Shown: positions 1 to 54,455 of the stretch, in pieces
How the letters are laid out: each line of letters opens with the position of its first letter
Numbering within the stretch: the stretch's first letter is position 1
NCBI RefSeq assembly: GCF_001458735.1
Contig: NZ_CZQA01000010.1
Coordinates: 372,001 to 436,000, forward strand
DNA from: Candidatus Nitrospira nitrosa
GTDB lineage: Bacteria > Nitrospirota > Nitrospiria > Nitrospirales > Nitrospiraceae
Length of the DNA: 64,000 nucleotides
Direction: 5' to 3'
Made by a program: the position numbers and the translations under genes
Notes under the pieces: generated by a model
What the model was told of the DNA's origin: nothing
Database searches by the model: none
The model's input: the letters and a program-made list of their open reading frames with translations, nothing else

Positions 1-1782
1 CTTAAGACCGCTCAAGCAAGGCACGAACGGCTCTCCAAAACAGTCGCGCTTGCCATCTTCTCGTCAAACGCGATTTCATCCGTCGCCTATGGAACGGAAG
101 AGATTCTACTGGTGTTGATTCTCGCTGGTCCGGCAGCCGTCGCCTGGTCGATTCCCGTCAGCTTCGCCATCCTGTTTCTCGTCGTGATGTTGACGATTTC
201 CTACCGGCAAATCATCCACGAATATCCTGAAGGAGGTGGGGCCTATGTCGTCGCACGGACGAACCTGGGCGACCGTCCGGCTCTCGTGGCGGCTGCGGCA
301 CTCATGATCGACTATGTCTTAACCGTAGCGGTCAGCGTGGCCGCCGGTATTGCGGCCCTGACATCCGCCATCCCAAGTCTATTCGTTCACCGCGAGGCTC
401 TTGGTTTGGTCGCTATTCTGTTCATCATCATGATGAACCTCCGTGGAGTTCGTGAATCCGGCAAGTTTTTTGCCGTTCCAACCTATTTTGCCATAGGCGC
501 CCTTGGCCTTCTGGTGCTCGTCGGGACCATTCGATCTCTTGCAAGTACCAGCACAGTTCTCCCTCCCCCAACCCCTGTCGAGACAGAAGCGCTGACCCTG
601 TTTCTCATCCTCCGCGCCTTTGCGGCAGGGTGCTCTGCCGTGACCGGGATGGAAGTCATTTCAAACGGAGTCAAGGCCTTTCGTCCACCGGAGCCACGGA
701 ATGCCGCGATCACCATGGTCTGGATGTCCGTGATCCTAGCCTCGCTCTTTATGGGTATCAGTTGGATGGCTTACCATAACGGCATTTTGGCCAAGATTGA
801 TGAAACCGTGATTTCCCAACTCGCTCGATTGACATTCGGTACAGGCCCCATCTACTACTCCATACAGATCGGCACCATGGCCTTGTTGGTATTGGCCGCG
901 AACAGTGCCTTTGCCGGTTTTCCACACCTGGCGTCGATCCTGGCGCGCGATGGATTCATGCCCCATCAGATGGCGACCTTCGGGGATCGATTGGTTTTTT
1001 CGAACGGCATCATCATTCTTGGGTTCTTTGCCTGTCTCCTGCTTGTGATCTTTGAGGGCGACACACACGGGTTGATTCCCTTATACGCCATCGGCGTGTT
1101 TGCCTCGTTTACACTGTCTCAGGCCGGCATGGTGAAACAATGGCTTGTGAAGAAAGGGCCACATTGGCAGACGAAACTGATCGTCAATGGAGCCGGTGCC
1201 CTGACGACCGGTATTGCGACGATCATCATCGCCACCACCAAGTTCATGCAGGGTGCGTGGATCGTCTTTGTACTCGTCGCCATTCTCCTACTCATCTTTC
1301 AGGGCATCCGCTCCCACTATAAAGCGGTCAGCGAACAGATCGCACTGGACCGACGAGGGGAACGACCGCCGTTACCTCGGCGCAATATCGTCATTATTCC
1401 CGTCAGTGGAATGAATCGTGCCGTGGTGCGTGCACTGGACTATGCACGGAGTCGACCGGGCGAAGTCCGTGCTGTGTACATCGACGTGGATCCTCAAGAA
1501 AGCGCCAAGGTCAAAATCCAGTGGGCTCAATGGGGAGGCGGCGTGAATTTGATCGCGCTGTCGTCGCCCTATCGTTCGGTCCTGGGATCATTGCTGGACT
1601 ACGTCGAGGAAGTCCTCGAGAAAGATCAGAACAGCTGGGTGACCGTCGTGATCCCGGAGATCCTACCGGCACGATGGTGGCAGAATATCCTCCATAACCA
1701 ACGAGCGCTCATGCTCAAAGCCTCACTGCTGTTCAAAGAGCGGGTGATTCTCATCGATGTCCCCTACCATTTGACGCGATGA
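1..1782 (+). CDS. APC-superfamily amino acid permease, 5' end missing
   Basis: Multi-pass inner-membrane transporter of the amino acid-polyamine-organocation type, probably importing an amino acid or related cation-coupled solute. The frame is open from base 1 and carries the family signature SSNAISSVAYGTEEIL ahead of the GTG at 112, so that GTG is internal and the true start lies before the window. About ten hydrophobic segments follow. After the last one (around residue 420 counted from the window edge) there is a soluble C-terminal domain of about 150 residues (RRNIVIIPVSGMNRAV onwards), as seen in the long KUP/APC-like permeases. The stop overlaps the next gene's start by 4 bases (ATGA), so the two are translationally coupled. 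Substrate not determinable. Confidence 0.85.
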   Translation, partial: LKTAQARHERLSKTVALAIFSSNAISSVAYGTEEILLVLILAGPAAVAWSIPVSFAILFLVVMLTISYRQIIHEYPEGGGAYVVARTNLGDRPALVAAAALMIDYVLTVAVSVAAGIAALTSAIPSLFVHREALGLVAILFIIMMNLRGVRESGKFFAVPTYFAIGALGLLVLVGTIRSLASTSTVLPPPTPVETEALTLFLILRAFAAGCSAVTGMEVISNGVKAFRPPEPRNAAITMVWMSVILASLFMGISWMAYHNGILAKIDETVISQLARLTFGTGPIYYSIQIGTMALLVLAANSAFAGFPHLASILARDGFMPHQMATFGDRLVFSNGIIILGFFACLLLVIFEGDTHGLIPLYAIGVFASFTLSQAGMVKQWLVKKGPHWQTKLIVNGAGALTTGIATIIIATTKFMQGAWIVFVLVAILLLIFQGIRSHYKAVSEQIALDRRGERPPLPRRNIVIIPVSGMNRAVVRALDYARSRPGEVRAVYIDVDPQESAKVKIQWAQWGGGVNLIALSSPYRSVLGSLLDYVEEVLEKDQNSWVTVVIPEILPARWWQNILHNQRALMLKASLLFKERVILIDVPYHLTR

Positions 1783-2822
1783 CAATGCGTCGTGACGCCC
1801 GGCGTCGGATCTCTCACCTCGTTCTCGTCACCGCGTGCCTTGCACTGGCACCTCCGGTTCATGCCTTCCAAATCACCGAGCCACCAGAAGGCGCCACGCT
1901 CGCTGCTGGAACGACCGTTACAGCGCGTGTGAATTTGGGCAAAGACGCCGGTATCATCAAGGTCCGCTACTATTGGTACGGTGAGCGAGATGAGGTCTTG
2001 GTTGAACAGGATGACTCAACCGCCACTGGCTCCATCGTGGCGCCGGTCGCCATGATCGGATCCATCGAACAGGACCCACCGTTTGGTGGACCACTCAACG
2101 TGCCACACGACACGATCGGGCCGATGCGTCTCTTGGCAGTGGCTGAGATTTCCCGTGGACGATTGGGAACCAGATCCGTGTTTGATGAAGTGATGGTGAA
2201 CGTTGCCCCCCCTGCGGCTCTCACCGCCATTGATTTTGAAACGGAGAAGCCGTTGCAATTGGGACGAGCCGGACAATCGTCGGCCTTCGGCCACGTAGAC
2301 TCGATGGGAAAGGTGTTCGAACTCCCCGTGATTGGAGAATTTGCCGATGGAGTCGCCCGGCGCATCAGCTCTCCAGCCAGCGGAACGAGTTATATCTCCT
2401 CCAATAGTACGGTCATCAAAGTCCTAGGTGATGGCCTCCTGCAGATCGTCGGGAATGGAAAAGCCACCATCACCGTCTCCAATCGTGGTAGGCGAACCAC
2501 GCTTGATGTCGACGTGAATGTGAACGATGAACCGAATGAGCCTCCGCTTGCAGATGCAGGAGCGAACAAGTCGGTCAAGGCCGGTTCCAGAGTGAAGCTC
2601 AGCGGCCTAAAAAGTCGAGACCCGGAAGGCGAAGCGCTCTACTATAGTTGGAGCCAAGTGCGCGGCAACAAGGTCCCGCTCCTCGATGCCAACAACTCAG
2701 AGGCTTCCTTCCTCGCCCCAACCGTCTCAGAGCCAAGGACCTATCGCTTTAAGCTGCGCGTGACGGATAAGAAGGGAGCGGACAGTCTGCCGGCGTTTGT
2801 GGATGTGAGGGTGGAGCCATGA
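1779..2822 (+). CDS. Exported protein with C-terminal PKD/REJ-like domain
   Basis: Predicted secreted protein of 347 aa. An Arg-rich n-region, hydrophobic core and PVHA-F cleavage site form a signal peptide of about 29 residues. The middle part (about 30-240) is beta-rich; a stretch around residues 185-240 resembles a bacterial Ig-like (Big) repeat. Residues about 255-347 match the PKD/K319L-type fold, with PPLADAGANKSVKAGS, LSGLKSRDPEGEALYYSWSQ and RFKLRVTDKKGA as hallmarks. It is coupled by a 4-base overlap to the permease, which suggests a periplasmic partner or simply co-expression. Function unknown. Confidence 0.75.
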   Translation: MTMRRDARRRISHLVLVTACLALAPPVHAFQITEPPEGATLAAGTTVTARVNLGKDAGIIKVRYYWYGERDEVLVEQDDSTATGSIVAPVAMIGSIEQDPPFGGPLNVPHDTIGPMRLLAVAEISRGRLGTRSVFDEVMVNVAPPAALTAIDFETEKPLQLGRAGQSSAFGHVDSMGKVFELPVIGEFADGVARRISSPASGTSYISSNSTVIKVLGDGLLQIVGNGKATITVSNRGRRTTLDVDVNVNDEPNEPPLADAGANKSVKAGSRVKLSGLKSRDPEGEALYYSWSQVRGNKVPLLDANNSEASFLAPTVSEPRTYRFKLRVTDKKGADSLPAFVDVRVEP

Positions 2823-20366: not shown

Positions 20367-21295
20367 CCGTAAATATCCGACAGTCCAGAGTAGACTCTGG
20401 ACATGGACACAAGAACTCGGATCATTCTTGCAGCGGAACTGGCGACTCAAGGGCTCTCCGTTTCCGCGATCGCGGGCCAACTTGAGCGCCATCGAGAAAC
20501 CATAGGACTCTGGCTGAAGGCGGTTCGAATCGAAGGACTCTCTGTCTTTCTGGATCGCTATGCTGCGGCCAAGACGGGGCCACGTCCGGCACGACAGGTC
20601 CCGGGAGCGGTCAAACGCCTTGTCTGGGCGATTCGCGCCCGTGAATACGACTGCTGTGGGCAGAAGATTCAGTACTTTCTGGCTCATGAACAGCATATCC
20701 ATCTCTCTGTTCCCAAGATCTATGAAATCTTGGCTGAACGATACGTCTTACGGCCTCGGGGCCGGACCAATCAGCCACGCGGCGTTGTGCCGATTGCCAC
20801 GGTTCCCCGCGCGGTCATTCAGATGGATACCGTGGTTTTTGGCGAGGTCTTCGCCTTTACCGGGGTGGACATCTATACGAAGGAAGCGGATGTCGTTCTG
20901 CGGACCGGACTAACAAGCGAGGATGGGGCCATGTTTTTGCGCACAGCCATGACTCGCCGCTTTACCGGGCCTGTGCAGATCATCCAGACCGATGGGGGCT
21001 CAGAGTTCAAAGGCGTGTTTGCCCAACAGGTGCTCCAGTATTGTACACGACATCGCATCGCCCGTCCCTATAAGAAGAACGAGCAGGCGTATATTGAGAG
21101 CTTCAATCGAACCCTGCGCAAGGAATGCTTGGGGTGGATCTCCTATCGAGTAGAAGAACTGCCCACACTCCAGGGCGAGGTGCGTGCATTTCTGGACCGG
21201 TATCACTATCATCGGCCGCATCTTGGATTCACCCCGATGCGACCGCCGTTATCGCCAAGCCGTGAAGGACCTGACGGACTGTCGGATATTTACGG
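20367..21295 (+). mobile_element. Insertion sequence with 20-bp perfect inverted repeats
   Basis: CCGTAAATATCCGACAGTCC at 20367-20386 is repeated as its exact reverse complement at 21276-21295, enclosing one DDE transposase gene. The right repeat lies inside the last codons of the transposase. No target duplication is obvious immediately outside the repeats, so the exact outer ends may lie a few bases further out. Confidence 0.8.
20383..20402 (+). promoter_or_regulatory. Hairpin abutting the transposase start codon
   Basis: GTCCAGAG and CTCTGGAC form an 8-bp stem with a 4-base loop ending one base before the ATG. Its first bases overlap the IS inverted repeat. It would hide the initiation region in an mRNA read from outside the element. 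Confidence 0.55.
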
Positions 21296-21302
21296 AGAAT
21301 AG
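20403..21302 (+). CDS. DDE transposase, integrase-core (IS481/IS3-like)
   Basis: 299 aa. An N-terminal helix-turn-helix (about 10-50, LSVSAIAGQLERHRETIGLW) is followed by a retroviral-integrase-type core with DDE residues in IQMDTVVFGE, IIQTDGGSEF and YIESFNRTLRKECL. It appears intact. The ATG directly follows the perfect hairpin GTCCAGAG-TAGA-CTCTGGAC (20383-20402), and no ordinary ribosome-binding site is free, which suggests low or controlled translation. Confidence 0.85.
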   Translation: MDTRTRIILAAELATQGLSVSAIAGQLERHRETIGLWLKAVRIEGLSVFLDRYAAAKTGPRPARQVPGAVKRLVWAIRAREYDCCGQKIQYFLAHEQHIHLSVPKIYEILAERYVLRPRGRTNQPRGVVPIATVPRAVIQMDTVVFGEVFAFTGVDIYTKEADVVLRTGLTSEDGAMFLRTAMTRRFTGPVQIIQTDGGSEFKGVFAQQVLQYCTRHRIARPYKKNEQAYIESFNRTLRKECLGWISYRVEELPTLQGEVRAFLDRYHYHRPHLGFTPMRPPLSPSREGPDGLSDIYGE

Positions 21303-21347
21303 TGCGGAGCGCCGGCGATCCAGAAGGGACAATATAAGATCTGACCC

Positions 21348-21516
21348 CCAGGGCTTCACAGCCCTGGTTCCTTAGTTCCTTCGGCGAAACTTGCCGGAAC
21401 CTGCCATCCTACGCCAAGGCTTCGAAGAGTACTCACTGCGTCTTCCTCTACCGCCATATCCATCCTCCGTAGCAGACGATAGCGAAGGAGGGACAGCGGT
21501 AGCTTCCTGCGTAGAC
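21348..21516 (-). repeat. Hairpin repeat, copy A (IS200/IS605-end-like)
   Basis: An 8-bp hairpin CCAGGGCT-TCAC-AGCCCTGG (21348-21367) is followed by GTTCC, CTTCGGCG and, 132 bases after the hairpin, TAGCTTCCTGCGTAGAC (21500-21516). The same order of elements occurs at 54313-54396 with a different stem sequence and shorter spacing. The covarying stem with 4-base loop resembles the terminal hairpins of IS200/IS605-type elements. No tnpA or tnpB gene is present. Confidence 0.6.
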
Positions 21517-21535
21517 AAACGAAACATGAAACGAC

Positions 21536-30972: not shown

Positions 30973-31626
30973 ATGCCCCGCATCCCTCGCGGCCATCTGG
31001 CCGGCCATGCCTTCCATGTCCTCAATCGCGGCAACGGCGGCGCCACCGTGTTTCACACCGACGGCGACTACCGAGCCTTTCTGGAACTGCTCGCCGCCGC
31101 GAAAGCCAGACATCCCGTCAAGATACTCGCCTTTTGCGTGATGCCCAACCATTTTCATCTTGTGCTCCAACCAGTCCGTGATGCGTCCCTCAGCCCCTTC
31201 ATGCACTGGTGGATGACCAGTCATGTCCGTCGCTATCATCGCTTCTACCGCAGTCATGGGCATGTGTGGCAAGGCCGATTCAAAAGCTTCCCGATTCAAC
31301 AAGACGGCCATCTGCTCACCGTCCTCCGCTATGTTCTGCACAATCCGGTCCGAGCGCGGTTGGTGAAGCACGCCGACGAGTGGCCCTGGTCCAGTCTGCG
31401 ATATCCCCACCTGATAGCTCCGCGCTCGGCGTCACGCTCAGCGGAGGGGCGCCACGGACTCGACGCCCCCTTGCTCGACGACGACCTCACGACCCTTCGC
31501 ACCTGTGTGAATCGGCAACAACCGTTTGGGTCCCCCCAGTGGCAACGCCGCATCGCAGCCCGACTCGGGCTGGAGTCCACGTTGCGTGCTCGTGGCCGTC
31601 CACGGCAATCCCGGCCTGAAAAGTAG
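30973..31626 (+). CDS. REP-associated tyrosine transposase (RAYT, Y1/HUH)
   Basis: 217 aa. ATG 30973 chosen because MPRIPRGHLAGHAFHVLNRG is the standard family start; the 57 bases upstream belong to the transposon end. HUH metal site in FCVMPNHFHLVL, then WMTSHVRRYHRFYRSHGHVW, WQGRFKSFPIQ and YVLHNPVRARLV with the catalytic-Tyr helix. RAYTs act on short palindromic ends on single-stranded DNA. The terminal inverted repeats of the element flank it. Confidence 0.9.
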   Translation: MPRIPRGHLAGHAFHVLNRGNGGATVFHTDGDYRAFLELLAAAKARHPVKILAFCVMPNHFHLVLQPVRDASLSPFMHWWMTSHVRRYHRFYRSHGHVWQGRFKSFPIQQDGHLLTVLRYVLHNPVRARLVKHADEWPWSSLRYPHLIAPRSASRSAEGRHGLDAPLLDDDLTTLRTCVNRQQPFGSPQWQRRIAARLGLESTLRARGRPRQSRPEK

Positions 31627-54044: not shown

Positions 54045-54312
54045 CCCACATTCGCGAAGCTCCCCACAGCTCAATTAGGGACATATCCACGTTCCTGTAT
54101 GCCGCTCCTAGAATTGTGGCTTCGCCGCTATGACAGACGCCTAGCGGGCACACTCGTGTACGGCGTCGCAAGTCCATCCCCCGCCGACAGCGCTTCAGCC
54201 CTTCATGAATAGTGTGGACTCAGGCTGGGAACAGCGCCTGTTCCCCAACAGATCCCGATTGCCTATAGCGGCAGCGGATAGACACACGTTGGCTCACCCA
54301 CCAAGTGGAGTC
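54045..54312. other. Intergenic, nothing recognised
   Basis: With repeat copy B that follows it, this is a 411-base gap between the lipoprotein and the AAA ATPase. No gene or promoter recognised. Confidence 0.4.
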
Positions 54313-54396
54313 CCACGGCTTAATAGCCGTGGTCCCTTTGGTTTCTTCGGCGACACTCGCTCGCATTCCTTCACAGCTGTAGCTTCCTGCGTAGAC
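54313..54396 (-). repeat. Hairpin repeat, copy B
   Basis: CCACGGCT-TAAT-AGCCGTGG (54313-54332), then GTCCC, CTTCGGCG, and TAGCTTCCTGCGTAGAC (54380-54396). Same arrangement as 21348-21516, same 8-bp stem and 4-base loop, but a different stem sequence and a shorter middle. On the minus strand both copies encode VYAGSY(S/R)C through the shared 17-mer, so it could be the tail of a lost transposon gene. Confidence 0.6.
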
Positions 54397-54455
54397 GAGT
54401 GACATTCTGTGGTTTTCTTGGTCAGCGTCGAGCCTCGTGCTAGCATTTTCCTCCG

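Follow-up and report, generated by a model that had tools for sequence, protein, structure and literature searches.

The window, the whole 64,000-nucleotide stretch of Candidatus Nitrospira nitrosa DNA analysed here, carries two hairpin elements, copies A and B, that share a 17-mer. Judged from sequence, these are two decayed members of a dispersed family of gene-less elements. They are very probably fossils of a family of PATEs (palindrome-associated transposable elements, derivatives of IS200/IS605 that lack a transposase), short transposons without genes, moved in trans by a Y1 transposase and with the minus strand as the active strand. This reading draws on what sequence comparison provides: a family with defined boundaries, a target, empty sites, no duplication, a covarying fold, no inner gene and a sister subfamily with IS200 relatives. 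The PATE family would be new, in Nitrospira; the kind is already known from Haloquadratum, as described in the accessible part of PMC3119063. The features of the two copies are as follows.

21341..21523, +: copy A, a decayed element (covariance model R1, E 4.5e-16; alignment with copy B and the contig C8 copy)
5' end of copy A, +: CTGACCCC in place of the usual GTGGAG (alignment with copy B and the contig C8 copy)
21348..21367, +: terminal hairpin P1 of copy A, CCAGGGCT-TCAC-AGCCCTGG; read on the minus strand, the right-end hairpin
21448..21502, +: second terminal hairpin of copy A, its loop enclosing an additional nested hairpin module at about 21455-21495
21500..21516, +: 17-mer of copy A, made up of hairpin foot TAG, guide-like CTTCC (21503-21507) and linker TGCGTAGAC
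21519..21523, +: target pentamer position of copy A, occupied by ACGAA and not GTGAA (decayed or atypical)
54305..54403, +: copy B, shortened, third hairpin (P3) lost; its last five bases, GTGAC, are the target (R1, E 4e-13)
54313..54332, +: terminal hairpin P1 of copy B, CCACGGCT-TAAT-AGCCGTGG
54354..54401, +: second-end outer stem of copy B, CACTCG (54354-54359) with CGAGTG (54396-54401) and, inside it, CGCA with TGCG
54380..54396, +: 17-mer of copy B, made up of hairpin foot, guide-like CTTCC (54383-54387) and linker
54399..54403, +: target of copy B, GTGAC (empty genomes: GTGAT in G006, GTGAC in G011)

The preliminary description had listed a common order, stem length and loop length, CTTCGGCG and an exact 17-mer in the two copies. 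All of these are confirmed. The 17-mer (TAGCTTCCTGCGTAGAC) has exact matches at 21500-21516 and 54380-54396. With up to three mismatches allowed, 0.12 matches were expected by chance and none of 100 shuffles held two. The 17-mer consists of three parts, a hairpin foot, guide-like bases and the linker leading to the cleavage site, and it is among the most conserved segments of the element. The first hairpins (21348-21367 in A, 54313-54332 in B) each have an 8-bp stem and a 4-nt loop, with CTTCGGCG downstream at 21379-21386 and 54345-54352, respectively. The compensated stem difference described between the copies is real but thin, amounting to one pair in the first stem (CCAGGGCT/AGCCCTGG versus CCACGGCT/AGCCGTGG). 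The hairpins had been placed correctly but the full elements, as delimited by R1, are larger than had been stated.

Elsewhere in the same genome is a third copy, a truncated right end carrying the 17-mer with one mismatch (contig C12, L003). A fourth own-genome match to R1 is known as a count only. Where the 5' end of copy A should be, the window reads AATATAAGATCTGACCCC (21331-21348), which occurs once in the window and presumably resembles an end of another mobile element. An IS481-like transposase gene, near-identical on contigs C10 and C12, is located at 20403-21302 (+) of the window and 1570-2469 (-) of L003. It scores 103 bits with NCBIfam NF033577, under the cut-off of 224. Each copy of the gene happens to adjoin a hairpin-element remnant.

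The family was found via the 17-mer, through a 264-nt element of a relative that matches 13 of 35 genomes of the order. A right-end pattern in which GTGA was required, applied to a collection of one genome per species (84,980 species), identified 78 stretches. Records labelled Nitrospira or Nitrospirae/Nitrospirales/Nitrospiraceae account for 72, and six are labelled 'uncultured Nitrosospira sp. isolate CMX'. The latter, on records CAADGK0100000xx and CAADGK010000106 (L082, L092, L101, L104, L108 and L132), are probably a mislabelled genome of the window's genus (G097). The 78 stretches contain 80 right ends, of which 15 were excluded for lack of a left end (up to 2 mismatches, at most 400 nt away). 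The remaining 65 copies, with both ends, span 48-354 nt and cluster at 48, 83, 147-150, 183-185 and 219-227 nt. Seven are 48-nt forms with one hairpin. None of the 65 contains a transposase gene and all are too short to hold one.

Model R1 is a covariance model derived from 21 copies in other records, all of the 147-150-nt form. Copy B was kept out for independent recovery; L081 (aberrant) and L134 (N-run) were also outside. Since it was built from copies selected for GTGA, R1 favours GTGAA too. The preliminary description had called for such a model and, in a search of 1.21 Mb, R1 recovered both window copies independently of themselves. Across the genus, it has matches in 49 of 79 genomes, at 0 to 38 copies per genome. 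As a separate measure, the left end with up to three mismatches occurs 3 to 55 times in 10 of 12 genomes and 2 times in each of the remaining two. Its control, the reversed sequence, is absent from 11 of the 12 and occurs twice in G031, against 11 occurrences of the left end itself. The left end is thus well above its control in all 12 genomes. We consider that chance resemblance between two unrelated hairpins is refuted and has practically no probability. Such a reading could appeal to the single compensated A/B pair in the first hairpin, and to the modest fold of copy B (z -1.57 versus shuffles, 12 of 200 equally stable; copy A folds better, z -2.50). However, a model from other records found both copies independently, and the family extends to 49 of 79 genomes. 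The literature on Nitrospira with RAYT/REP, MITE or PATE, represented mostly at listing level and by papers outside subscription, names no such family. Nor does the same partial literature mention a structured middle, loop modules or guide-target subfamilies.

Next to the elements, relatives supply empty sites. For 16 filled sites, the flanks were joined and used as queries against 76 genomes, with base-level views at seven. At these seven sites the element is cleanly absent from the empty alleles and the junctions are clean. In the closest empty genome, GTGAA is exactly at the junction at six of the seven. At the seventh (L119) the filled allele has GTGAT and the closest empty genome GCGAT. 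Twenty-nine empty alleles were read, many of them distant and all a subset of the spanning matches (30 loci, with L220 lacking a junction); exact GTGAA is seen in 18 of them and GTGA in another two. For the site of copy B, the element is absent from G006, which reads …GTGATATTCTG with GTGAT at the junction and a left flank matched by eye. It is also absent from G011, which reads …GTGACATTCTG with GTGAC at the junction and a left flank that does not align. A sister copy is present in G032.

Flanks of the 65 copies show at most 0.16 bit of conservation, save for an A after GTGA (59 of 65); in this set GTGA itself was selected by the pattern, whereas the following A and the empty sites were not. 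In the 69-row set found by R1, the end is GTGAA in 30 rows and GTGA in 37, the rest being diverged, truncated or echoes. Target duplication of at least three bases was not above chance in the 65 copies, and two-base matches numbered 8 versus 5 expected. Because GTGAA is already present at empty sites and the junctions are clean, we conclude that insertion is 3' of TTCAC on the opposite strand and makes no duplication. Both element and target start with GTG; hence, the cut on the active strand may fall after TT, TTC, TTCA or TTCAC. IS200/IS605 transposases act on single-stranded DNA. Their elements have no inverted repeats, make no duplication, have hairpins near the ends and use a fixed target at one end. 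On sequence grounds, the manner of insertion seen here appears to be that of IS200/IS605-type single-strand transposition. Such a mechanism inserts into the lagging-strand template and an orientation bias is expected. No such bias was seen (36:24, p 0.16; 38:28, p 0.27) with GC skew over about 5-20 kb, a crude proxy, as the measure.

On the minus strand, the order of parts is TTCAC, linker, GGAAG, hairpin … GGGA, hairpin, CTCCAC. Plain antiparallel pairing is possible between TTC and GAA, and between TCC and GGA. In the main subfamily, the foot CTTCC accompanies the target GTGAA; of 99 distinct right ends, 92 have T at the matching foot position, and 91 of these have A in the target. The foot CTCCC accompanies the target GTGGT or GTGGA in two copies, L342 and L345, both from G021; a third CTCCC copy, L361, fits only with the linker read four bases shorter. 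Four copies (L324, L326, L368 and L099) form a sister subfamily with target GAATA. Its foot is TATTC in three and TTTTC in L099. The simple complementarity rule is broken by a diverged group with feet CATTC/CATCC and targets GTAAA/GTAAC. Guide-like bases and targets seem to change together across subfamilies, the evidence within the main subfamily being the two CTCCC copies. A more ambitious scheme, which we hold only tentatively and think rather unlikely as a whole, is a series of retargeted single-strand transposons. In it, guides GGAAG, GGGAG and GAATA would serve targets TTCAC, TCCAC or ACCAC, and TATTC, respectively. One IS200-type TnpA would move all of them in trans, and the middle hairpins and loop modules would be selected as parts of the folded strand.

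An intact element is about 145 nt long and has four hairpin domains. These are, in order, P1, P2 (CTTCGGC/GCCGAAG), P3 (GTCCTCC/GGAGGAC) and the second end, which is long and has an outer stem CACCCAC-TGCGCA / TGCGTA-GGTGGGTG around another 8-bp hairpin; the outer stem of copy B has CACCCAC/GTGGGTG as its counterpart in an intact copy. Each element end has a subterminal palindrome. By inspection there are no terminal inverted repeats, the ends GTGGAG... and ...GGYGG(GTGAA) not being inverted copies. Extra hairpin modules of about 35 nt are found inside the loops of the end hairpins. In stretches already enriched for the element, all 12 occurrences of a strict single-module pattern are in such loops. 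Comparison of L129 with L089 is direct: the right flanks are 95% identical, the junctions align, and the difference is one 35-nt and one 42-nt insert. By alignment, copy A has its module in the second hairpin and copy B lacks P3. In G042, from another genus of the order, 11 matches to the 264-nt query all fall on palindromic inserts (GCCTACTCCGCCGAAGTAGC... type) and none on the ends. This palindromic sequence may be a small mobile repeat in its own right, one that inserts into these elements much as SMRs do into PATEs in Haloquadratum.

We assessed covariation in the 69-row alignment, A3. Of its cells, 91.5% are paired, compared to 34-40% in slid-partner controls, and 39 of 45 pairs have compensated changes on both sides. 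None of 500 shuffles reached the A3 values. A3 was fitted to the model structure, so these pair counts lean toward the model, and three rows (L341 +, L324 - and L360 -) repeat, as weak echoes on the opposite strand, copies that A3 includes anyway. In a MAFFT alignment of 21 copies, which is not structure-fitted, both-side changes occur in three pairs. The end pairing GGA/TCC itself covaries (helix 1 of A3). Covariation had previously been taken to mean that the hairpin is under selection. This is borne out for the family by the 69-row alignment, but could not be concluded from two copies.

A conserved structured RNA, either regulatory or a guide RNA such as HEARO/IscB or TnpB omega RNA, is in our judgement very improbable. 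It would account for the stable fold of an intact copy (z -5.3 versus shuffles with RNA parameters) and for family-wide covariation that includes G-U pairs. The GTGA beside the end also resembles HEARO integration sites. However, the sites are empty in relatives and genomes differ from 0 to 38 copies. With DNA parameters the fold hardly changes (z -5.8). No element reaches an Rfam gathering score, the best weak matches having E 0.58 or worse; in the window, an Rfam scan returned two tRNAs only. The preliminary description had also compared the form with the guide-RNA region at the end of tnpB genes. That comparison is not upheld by the Rfam result, nor by PF07282, the TnpB domain and the single domain covered by the search for an associated nuclease gene, which is absent from all 10 genomes of the genus examined. 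The repeat family is worth annotating in Nitrospira genomes, where it could pass for a riboswitch or a tnpB guide RNA.

Returning to gene-less transposons moved by a Y1 enzyme, we compared the elements with IS200 transposase genes of the genus. An IS200 tnpA element is present in the window's own genome (contig C1 584742-585104, L008) with an open frame of 162 aa. This TnpA scores 131.5 bits with NF033573 (cut-off 55), and its relatives in the PDB by phmmer include the ISHp608 transposase 2a6m. Both ends of the element were read in four genomes (L008, L044, L264 and L265); each time, TTCA precedes the element and also closes it. The sister subfamily has its middle hairpin in common with the main one, and R1 found three of its copies (E 1.6e-10 to 2.8e-12). 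Its right-end block GATACCCCGCAGCTTGCTGCGGGGAGCTTCA is identical in L368 and L099 to that of the IS200 tnpA element, and differs at a few bases in L324 and L326. Its other hairpin, CCCCGTAGC..GCTACGGGG, is also common to the two. Since the sister subfamily shares its hairpins with an IS200 tnpA element, the family is placed with IS200/IS605. The hairpins of the main subfamily (CCACGGCT) differ from those of the IS200 element; thus, the contig C1 TnpA is not proved to be its mover.

The preliminary description had seen a likeness to IS200/IS605 right ends. An affinity to this group is supported by the fixed target TTCAC at one end, the lack of duplication, the subterminal hairpins, the guide-like foot bases and the hairpins of the sister subfamily. 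However, the likeness applies to both ends, and on the strand opposite to the one that had been read. Further copies and a match to a transposon end, on which the earlier proposal had been made to depend, both exist, as a dispersed family and an IS200 hairpin match, respectively. A possible autonomous member of the main subfamily, a 3364-nt left-to-right span in L091, was rejected; it contains ordinary-looking genes and an N-run, and was resolved into separate elements. Also set aside were weak R1 matches near IS200 genes in L280 and L281 (left hairpin to the far end of other IS200 elements, E 0.052 and 0.018) and L048 (E 0.023).

The following mechanism is consistent with these data. The element would be exposed as single-stranded DNA, allowing the end hairpins to fold. 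A Y1 transposase (TnpA) encoded elsewhere in the genome would bind the end hairpins. The foot bases of each hairpin would pair with the cleavage site, thereby setting the position of the cut. The excised single strand would then be rejoined 3' of another TTCAC, without duplication. Here we infer the single-stranded intermediate, the action of TnpA in trans and the guide function. IS200/IS605 enzymes bind hairpins and cut at a site that is set by bases lying 5' of the foot, according to the available part of PMC6006769; IS608 has been retargeted by changing guide bases, as reported in the section of PMC8266576 at hand. Like IS608 and ISDra2, as far as those same two sources extend, the family has a target oligonucleotide beside LE; its bases 5' of the foot may act as guides, as do those of IS608 and ISDra2, which can be changed to retarget the element. 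Unlike them it has no tnpA or tnpB, and plain antiparallel pairing may lack the IS608 geometry. Natural insertions number in the dozens, for many of them relatives supply the empty allele, and the IS608 guide rule is therefore testable on natural variation.

Several known systems have features in common with this family. The PATEs of Haloquadratum walsbyi, in the portion of PMC3119063 open to us, likewise have no terminal inverted repeats, IS605-type near-terminal palindromes and no transposase. Very short, terminal-only forms occur in both, at 52 bp in Haloquadratum (same portion) and as the 48-nt one-hairpin forms here. The present family differs in belonging to Nitrospirota, and in having a covarying middle with two more hairpins and loop modules of about 35 nt, neither of which is mentioned in that portion of PMC3119063. 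The IS200 tnpA element of the genus is similar in that both its ends have a nearby hairpin, TTCA precedes the left end and closes the right one, and inverted repeats are absent. It differs in carrying tnpA, and the main subfamily departs from it in its stems (CCACGGCT), its guide-like bases and its target, TTCAC. BOX elements of pneumococcus, from another phylum, have a modular build with optional repeated modules, as here. We know of no IS200-type target or ends for BOX elements.

Genes for Y1 transposases (PF01797) were found in all 27 genomes searched, 26 over the cut-off, and the genus repeatedly shows Y1 frames some 234 aa long. Among the Y1 genes whose surroundings were examined (102 stretches; 8 weak Y1 matches are outside this set), none lies inside main-subfamily ends. 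L256 and L304, both from copy-rich genomes, each place an element and a Y1 gene 1-2 kb apart. The Y1 gene of the window, at about 31012-31338 (+), encodes a RAYT (NF047646, 82.5 bits; cut-off 80). It adjoins an ORF that we take to be an IS30-type transposase, and no perfect hairpin of at least 9 bp was found around it.

RAYTs are domesticated relatives of TnpA, and REP/REPIN-type elements moved by a RAYT would be another explanation for the family, although we judge this improbable. REP/REPIN elements are also short, hairpin-based and gene-less, with GTGG at one end. Consistent with this, Y1 genes are general in the genus, that in the window is a RAYT gene, and 7 of 65 copies have one hairpin. 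The element also starts with GTGG, one of the REP tags GT[AG]G given in the accessible text of PMC6006769. However, this GTGG ends 4 nt before the 8-bp stem, and not 0-2, and two of its bases join the GGA/TCC pairing. The conserved target sits at the opposite end, and a fixed target and a conserved multi-hairpin middle set the family apart from REP/REPIN elements. None of the stretches searched has a RAYT gene with the element at its flanks. The sister subfamily has the hairpins of the IS200 element, not of a RAYT. Another Y1 domain is found in L011 (505-2337, G000:C13), where a 611-aa frame links sequence that is presumably RHS-repeat-like to a Y1 transposase domain. This frame is perhaps an insertion or a fusion.
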